A stretch of 64,000 nt of DNA, taken from contig CALVAA010000001.1 of assembly GCA_944325315.1 (NCBI GenBank), forward strand, positions 62,001-126,000, written 5' to 3'. Both the position numbers and the translations under genes were made by a program. Each line of letters opens with the position of its first letter. Position 1 is the stretch's first letter. Below, piece after piece: positions 26,850-28,502 of this stretch. The notes beneath the pieces were generated by a model that was not told where the DNA came from, searched no databases, and worked only from the letters and a program-made list of their open reading frames with translations. The stretch comes from Candidatus Gastranaerophilales bacterium (lineage in GTDB: Bacteria; Cyanobacteriota; Vampirovibrionia; Gastranaerophilales; Gastranaerophilaceae).

Positions 26850-26983
26850 ATAAATCTCCTTTTTTTAATATTATAACACATTAGTCAATACTGTAATTTT
26901 GCCACAGGGTGCTTAGGTCTTGGGGCTAATTTTTTTTATTTTTCAGCTATGTAAAAATCAAAAAAGTTAAGAAAGGATATAAG

Positions 26984-27367
26984 ATGACAAAAAGAAATGA
27001 AACTTACAAATGCAATGTTTGTAAAAATGTTGTTGAAATGACAAGTGAAGGATATGGGGAACTTGTATGCTGCGGTGAAAAAATGGAGCTTTTAAAAGAA
27101 AATATCCCTGATATTCAAAATGCTCACTTTGCTTTTGTTGAAAATGTTGACGATATTGAAAAAAAAGTTGTCATAAAGCATGTGATGACACCGGAGCACC
27201 ATATTGAATACATTGAAGCAATTTCAAACGATGAAATTTTTCTAAAAAGAAAATATTTAAAAGTTAATGAACCCTGCCAAATGAATTTTAAATGTGAATG
27301 CAAAGACGGGTTTTACATAAGACTTTATTGCAATTTAGACGGTCTTTGGACGACAAAACAGTTTTAG
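26984..27367 (+). CDS. desulfoferrodoxin-like protein with altered superoxide reductase site
   Basis: 127 residues. Domain I has the rubredoxin-like Fe site C10-x2-C13...C29-C30. Domain II is a superoxide reductase fold: H48, H66, H72 and C116 line up with four ligands of the [Fe(His)4Cys] centre, but the final C-x2-H is C116-N-L-D119 (CNLDGLW), so the fourth His is Asp. The catalytic Glu-Lys before the first His is also gone (NAH for EKH). Reduction of superoxide may be impaired or the site may hold another metal. AAAGGAT precedes the ATG. It is 9 nt upstream of the ferritin, clearly an operon. Confidence 0.88.
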   Translation: MTKRNETYKCNVCKNVVEMTSEGYGELVCCGEKMELLKENIPDIQNAHFAFVENVDDIEKKVVIKHVMTPEHHIEYIEAISNDEIFLKRKYLKVNEPCQMNFKCECKDGFYIRLYCNLDGLWTTKQF

Positions 27368-27376
27368 GAGAAATTA

Positions 27377-27874
27377 ATGGAAACACAGCTTATTCAAACT
27401 TTTAACAAACAAATAAACCATCAGTTCTATAGTGCTTATCTGTACTTTGCAATGTCTACATACTTTGACGAGATTGCAATGCGCGGTTTTTCAAATTTTA
27501 TGAAGCATAAAGCAAGCCAGAAGCTTAATTGCGCTCAAAAAATTTATGATTATATAATTTTAAGAGACGAAAAGCTTACTTTTTCAAAAATTGAAGAACC
27601 GGGTGTTGATTGGATTAATGTGTCAGATATTTTCACTGCGGCTCTTGCCCATGAGGAATTTATGTATATCCAAATACAAGAGCTTTACAAAACAGCAAGG
27701 CAAGTTGATGATATAGCAGCAATTGAATTTATTTCAGGACTTATCACGGAACAAATAGAGACAATTGCACTATTTAAAAAGCTTGTTTTTAGAATAAAAA
27801 ATTCAAACATTATTCCTGTAAATATTGAATTTCTTGATGAGATTATAAACAAAGATGTAAGTGCTATCGGTTAA
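27377..27874 (+). CDS. ferritin-like protein with dismantled ferroxidase centre
   Basis: A 165-residue four-helix ferritin. Aligned with E. coli FtnA, the diiron ligands E17, E50, H53 and E130 become Q16, K49, C52 and T129; only E93 (HEE) and the EQ pair at 125-126 remain. The fold pattern (NHQFYSAYLY, ALAHEEF, TEQIETI) is otherwise clear. It probably cannot oxidise iron like a normal ferritin and may be a partner subunit, a haem or thiol binder, or a DNA-protection shell (inference). It shares an operon with the desulfoferrodoxin. The 3' end overlaps nth by 11 nt. Confidence 0.87.
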   Translation: METQLIQTFNKQINHQFYSAYLYFAMSTYFDEIAMRGFSNFMKHKASQKLNCAQKIYDYIILRDEKLTFSKIEEPGVDWINVSDIFTAALAHEEFMYIQIQELYKTARQVDDIAAIEFISGLITEQIETIALFKKLVFRIKNSNIIPVNIEFLDEIINKDVSAIG

Positions 27875-28502
27875 ATTTGCAATATTTTTTAACAGAACAA
27901 ATATCGCATTTGGGTTTTATCGGTTTGCAGATATTTTGCCCGTGGGTTACTAAAAGAGTGTTGAAATCAATCCAATATTCTTTTGGCAAAATTTTTCTTA
28001 AAACTTGTTCTGTTTCATCGGGAGTTTTCGTATTTACATAACCCAAACGGTTTGTAATTCTGTGGACATGGACATCAACACAAATTGCGGGAATATTAAA
28101 ACCTTTTGCTAAAACAAGATTGGCGGTTTTTCTTCCAACACCTTTGAATTTTACTAACTCTTCTATTGAAGAAGGAACTTTTCCTTCGTATTTTTCTACA
28201 ATTTGTTTTGACAATTCTATAATTTGAGCTGCTTTGTTTTGGTAAAACCCAACGGGATATATTGCTCTTGCCAGGGTTTCAATGTTAACTCCCATCATTT
28301 TATACGGGTCATCTGCAAGTTCCAGCATTCTTTTAGCCGCTTTAATCGTAATTTTATCATTTGTTCTTAAAGATAAAATGCAGCAAACTAAAACAATAAA
28401 AGGGTTTTTGATATTTTCCATAAAATCTACAAACTCGCTATGAAAAACTTTTTTTTCAATATAATCATTTTTTAAATTTGAAATAATATTTCTAATAACC
28501 AT
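27864..28502 (-). CDS. nth: endonuclease III
   Basis: A 212-residue DNA glycosylase/AP lyase for oxidised pyrimidines. The helix-hairpin-helix with catalytic Lys is FKGVGRKTANLVLA, the catalytic Asp is in VDVHVHRI, and the 4Fe-4S cluster ligands are C-x6-C-x2-C-x5-C at the C-terminus (CKPIKPKCDICSVKKYC). All key residues are present. Divergent from thioredoxin. Confidence 0.95.
   Translation of the reverse strand: MVIRNIISNLKNDYIEKKVFHSEFVDFMENIKNPFIVLVCCILSLRTNDKITIKAAKRMLELADDPYKMMGVNIETLARAIYPVGFYQNKAAQIIELSKQIVEKYEGKVPSSIEELVKFKGVGRKTANLVLAKGFNIPAICVDVHVHRITNRLGYVNTKTPDETEQVLRKILPKEYWIDFNTLLVTHGQNICKPIKPKCDICSVKKYCKFNR

Follow-up and report, generated by a model that had tools for sequence, protein, structure and literature searches.

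A desulfoferrodoxin-linked ferritin of one Gastranaerophilales genus, probably a ferroxidase-silent subunit of the L-chain kind

Ferritin subunits with a missing or broken ferroxidase site have been described in animals and in bacteria. In human L ferritin, the place of the iron site is taken by a Lys62-Glu107 salt bridge (PMC11396501). Enterobacteria have FtnB (E. coli b1902), a non-haem ferritin whose ferroxidase site is broken, beside the canonical FtnA. In Magnetospirillum the ferroxidase-less subunit Bfr2 is paired with an active subunit, and Bfr1/Bfr2 and the Pseudomonas pair FtnA/BfrB are bacterial examples of mixed cages (PMC8945002). A 2020 review holds that every prokaryotic ferritin subunit has a catalytic centre (PMC7762939). 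FtnB and Bfr2 already qualify this rule, and the genus described here qualifies it with wide conservation: a whole bacterial genus has a conserved, selected Ftn that lacks ferroxidase ligands and has convergently come to share the residue pattern of the animal L chain. No paper on the ferritins of Gastranaerophilales turned up in the literature search.

The gene lies in a 64,000-nucleotide stretch of a Candidatus Gastranaerophilales genome (the window). The genome comprises 1.81 Mb in 34 contigs, is 96.9% complete, and also encodes rubrerythrins. The reading frame is on the forward strand at 27377..27874, from an ATG at 27377 to a stop codon ending at 27874. It encodes 165 amino acids and is the second gene of an operon that begins with a desulfoferrodoxin. 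It is a true full-length member of the ferritin family, with a PF00210 match of 99 bits in the Pfam profile search (cut-off 24.5), and its closest PDB relatives by sequence match are the Pyrococcus and Thermotoga ferritins. The AlphaFold2 single-chain model has a pLDDT of 90.8 and contains helices A-E, and Foldseek aligns it to PfFtn 2X17 with an rmsd of 1.0 A over 159 columns. Both the modelled fold and the length fit a ferritin cage subunit.

The ferroxidase site is altered. Positions are counted here in Pyrococcus (Pf) numbering, and the window residue is the Pf number minus 1. The catalytic H-type/FtnA ligands are E17, E50, H53, E94, Q127, and E130, while the window protein has Q17, K50, C53, E94, Q127, and T130. 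An earlier note on this DNA had proposed that four of the six ligands are replaced, and the alignment agrees. The replacements are Q16 (Pf E17Q, codon 27422..27424), K49 (Pf E50K, 27521..27523), C52 (Pf H53C, 27530..27532), and T129 (Pf E130T, 27761..27763), all on the forward strand. E93 (Pf E94, 27653..27655, also forward) and Q126 (Pf Q127) are kept, and the site-C position Pf E49 is likewise a glutamine.

The loss of the site is shared by the genus. An orthologue of the operon ferritin is present in 26 of 28 genus genomes, the window protein included, with 53-78% identity to it among the genus members. The two genomes without a match are 77% and 82% complete. Most of these genomes are Candidatus Gastranaerophilales MAGs, and several come from gut samples. 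Position 50 is cationic in all 26 orthologues (K in 24, R in two), H53 is found in none of them (C12, N7, S2, R2, T, L, V), and E94 and Y24 are found in all. Because the cation at 50, the loss of H53, and the retention of E94 recur in 26/26, the ligand loss is not a sequencing accident. Other positions are less uniform. E17 is kept in 24/26, with Q only in the window protein and G019; E130 is lost in 24 and present in two; and Q127 is found in 17. The earlier note had called for a check of whether these substitutions are conserved across relatives. K/R50 and the losses of H53 and E130 recur, Q17 occurs in two orthologues, and C53 occurs in 12. C52 and Q16 of the window protein are local details.

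The operon ferritins retrieved from sister genera and other families are canonical, including those of the two nearest sister groups (38-50% identity). A search across 286 genomes of the order set the silent clade apart, with E values below 1e-82 within the genus and about 1e-55 for the next matches; the ten loci that follow the silent clade were inspected and all are canonical. A 95-row ferritin tree places the silent ferritins in a single clade (100/100), nested among the intact operon ferritins (98/87) and carried on a stem branch of 1.19 changes per site. The ferroxidase site was lost once, in the common ancestor of a single Gastranaerophilales genus.

After that stem the protein has been under strong purifying selection, with dN/dS between close pairs of about 0.04-0.1. 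Changes within the clade are unevenly spread. Position 50 has changed twice, only between K and R, position 17 twice, and positions 94 and 24 not at all, against a median of 3. Position 53 has changed nine times, 126 ten, 129 twelve, 130 thirteen, and 122 fifteen times, and position 49 also falls in this 9-to-15-change group. The codons at position 50 are AAA, AAG, and AGA, showing that the codon does mutate but stays within one residue class. Among the 29 positions that are near-invariant in intact ferritins, the losses are almost all in the catalytic parts of helices B (46-53) and D (119-131), and they are enriched at site residues in a small test (Fisher p 0.03). The clade has also gained invariant residues of its own, chiefly in the BC loop (RDEKL...K..EP..DWIN), where 12/19 positions are invariant compared with 3/19 in the canonical paralogue. 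If the gene were decaying towards loss because a second ferritin suffices, residues that are otherwise invariant would disappear, as they have in helices B and D. Such decay is extremely improbable, since the frame is open in 26/26 genomes, dN/dS is low, and new positions have become invariant. The site loss together with the new invariants indicates a protein that was altered and then conserved. A pseudogene or relaxed selection is ruled out by the dN/dS values and the new invariants.

The pattern of constraint suggests a ferroxidase-silent subunit of the L-chain kind, its site probably plugged by a K/R50-E94 ion pair, a reading to which we give a probability of about 0.6. The four-helix bundle is retained in the fold model, and the sequence shows that the diiron site is gone. 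By homology with human L ferritin, the space would be filled by the buried K/R50-E94 pair, perhaps together with E17. A constant cation at the position of the bridging ligand faces a constant E94, from which we infer a K49-E93 ion pair in the window protein. No Fe(II) oxidation would be expected at such a site, and a structural or storage subunit is the most likely role.

The likeness to the animal L chain is specific: a Lys stands at the E62 position (here K49), Glu is kept at the E107 position (here E93), and a gene for a canonical subunit is present alongside. The cation at 50 with Glu at 94 is found in 26/26 orthologues at the sequence level. An acidic nucleation cluster on helix B is typical of the L chain. 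Unlike the L chain, the silent ferritin has no such cluster. Positions 44-55 are mostly basic or neutral, and helix B of the clade carries K44, H45, S48, Q/E49, and N52. The silent ferritin further differs in having arisen independently in bacteria, in mostly keeping E17, and in being linked to a desulfoferrodoxin, and mixed cages are speculative here.

The retained residues could be read in another way. With E94 and Y24 in 26/26 orthologues, E17 in 24/26, and Q127 in 17/26, a slow or altered metal site made from E17, E94, and Q127 might leave the protein a weak ferroxidase. We regard this as quite improbable, since the bridging ligand E50 is always replaced by a cation, which should repel iron, and the positions of H53, E129, and E130 are unconstrained.

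The earlier note had suggested a thiol/haem site or a DNA-protecting shell. C52 in the window protein and the roughly two Cys that members of the clade have per subunit speak for the former, and a net charge less negative than in relatives speaks for the latter. However, Cys53 occurs in only 12/26 orthologues, the number of Cys per subunit ranges from 1 to 4, and the charge is still acidic at about -6 per subunit. Position 50 changes only between K and R, whereas 53, 129, and 130 are free to vary, a pattern that matches the human L chain and not a new thiol or haem site. A thiol site at C52 is rejected on the free variation of its position, and a DNA shell on the charge. As a whole, the thiol/haem or DNA-shell proposal is very improbable.

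A canonical ferritin is encoded elsewhere in the genome. The earlier note had called for a genome search for a second, normal ferritin, and one is present in the source genome at G000:C3:58249-58653 with every ligand intact. The canonical paralogue keeps all ligands in 28/28 genus genomes and is only about 35% identical to the silent ferritin. Two canonical ferritins, L085 (G008) and L092 (G026), cluster with sister-genus sequences instead of those of their own genus; this placement suggests gene transfer or an old duplicate. For the silent subunit, one option is a mixed cage in which the canonical ferritin would supply ferroxidase activity; another is a cage of its own, filled slowly or by another oxidant. 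Mixed cages of silent and canonical ferritin, comparable to those of animal H/L ferritin, are speculative, and they fit the constant presence of the paralogue. Mirror-tree rate covariation between the two ferritins gave a partial r of 0.37 (p 0.004), but it falls to r -0.02 once one subclade plus G008 is dropped, and an unrelated gene pair gives similar values. The covariation signal was set aside because it depends on a subclade and is matched by the unrelated pair. The genus offers a direct way to test whether bacteria form mixed non-haem ferritins of the H/L type.

The bacterial counterparts differ from the silent ferritin in several respects. E. coli FtnB has S49, N50, Q53, and Y94 in the alignment, without the Lys-Glu pair, and is a very divergent branch outside any desulfoferrodoxin operon. 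An assignment of the window protein as FtnB was ruled out by its score of 40.5 bits against the FtnB family model NF011597 (cut-off 154) and by the ferritin tree, in which FtnB clusters with FtnA, away from the silent clade. Magnetospirillum Bfr1/Bfr2 is a haem bacterioferritin with both genes in one operon and the haem Met ligand kept.

The operon partner has been remodelled in the same lineage, but to a lesser degree. The desulfoferrodoxin (2Fe superoxide reductase family) is encoded on the forward strand at 26984..27367 and has 127 amino acids. It exceeds the cut-offs of PF06397 and PF01880 in the profile search; its TIGR00320 match of 89.5 bits is under the cut-off of 146.9. The Cys ligands of centre I (CX2C...CC; C10, C13, C29, and C30) are present in 26/26 genus members, and H49, H69, H75, and C116 of centre II are invariant in 34 aligned sequences. 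The centre II signature of superoxide reductases (SOR) is HX5H-CX2H (PMC3116461); the desulfoferrodoxin of the window has HX5H, CX2D in place of CX2H, and NA in place of EK. The codons N46-A47 (27119..27124, forward) stand where the canonical catalytic E47-K48 pair would be, and D119 (27338..27340, forward) replaces the iron ligand H119. In SOR, E47 and K48 reportedly have a role in catalysis, a point associated with Lombard et al. in 2001. E47-K48 is lost in 26/26 genus members, and position 119 is D in 21/26 and H in 5/26. In sister genera the pair is kept, save for Tyr at K48 in one genome, and H119 is retained in all intact relatives. Compared with the Desulfoarculus baarsii superoxide reductase (2JI1), the desulfoferrodoxin of the window has the same fold and most of the iron ligands in common, while the genus lacks E47-K48 and mostly has Asp for H119. 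The earlier note had both proteins losing their sites. This is right for the diiron centre of the ferritin, but the desulfoferrodoxin keeps its four Cys and H49/H69/H75/C116 and is altered rather than dismantled.

In the desulfoferrodoxin tree the five members that keep H119 diverge near the base of the clade, at moderate support, which suggests that E47-K48 was lost before H119. The dN/dS of desulfoferrodoxin between close pairs is somewhat higher than that of the ferritin and reaches about 0.17. In every genus genome with an SOR, this protein is the only one found, and a search for Fe/Mn-SOD found none in 35 genomes of the family. How such gut anaerobes handle superoxide therefore becomes a question: either the altered desulfoferrodoxin can still reduce it, if perhaps slowly, or the genus is without this defence.

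The joint change of the two proteins invites the view that they form a dedicated pair. The altered desulfoferrodoxin would dock on the silent cage, with the conserved BC loop as docking face; electrons from the Fe(Cys)4 centre I would release iron, or the desulfoferrodoxin would be metallated there. Bfd passes electrons into bacterioferritin for iron release, and in ferritins the BC loop lies at the outer face of the dimer. The gap between the two genes is 9 nt in the window and the order is tight (-1 to 32 nt) in 24/26 genomes. Both proteins were remodelled in one lineage, the Cys of centre I are invariant, and the BC loop is invariant and clade-specific. However, rates of the silent ferritin and desulfoferrodoxin do not covary (partial r -0.16). 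The other Gastranaerophilales operons, including those of sister genera, are orthologous with the same gene order and have canonical residues in both proteins, so that the linkage is older than the change. On the sampled trees each protein was remodelled once; the two events coincide on one branch only, which does not prove that the proteins function together. A dedicated pair is rather unlikely, and docking of the desulfoferrodoxin on the silent cage is speculative.

In the ancestor of the genus, the operon seemingly gave up an oxygen-reactive role for one that does not react with oxygen. A broader proposal is that the SOR-ferritin operon as a whole became an oxygen-independent pair for iron handling, in which a redox protein loads or unloads a silent cage. 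We consider this unlikely; if true, the converted operon would be a bacterial iron-handling system distinct from Bfr-Bfd.

Some features of the surrounding DNA were also observed. In G027 (L014) and G011 (L017), the two genes are separated by about 320 and 420 nt of additional DNA, and the stretch in L014 resembles a tandem repeat. An imperfect palindrome, TTAGCC-N5-GGCTAA, lies at 26913-26929 of the window, about 55-70 nt before the desulfoferrodoxin start. Most genus members have it in recognisable form 5' of their operon, in many cases followed by a conserved TGTGCAAAAATTT. The palindrome is a possible operator or promoter element. No regulon was found for it, as its other matches in the genome (7, against 9 for the control) do not lie at related genes, and an Rfam search returned no element. 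On the other side, an endonuclease III gene (27864-28502) is convergent to the ferritin and directly adjoins it. This adjacency holds in each of the 26 genus genomes in which both genes occur, a sign of a stable locus.
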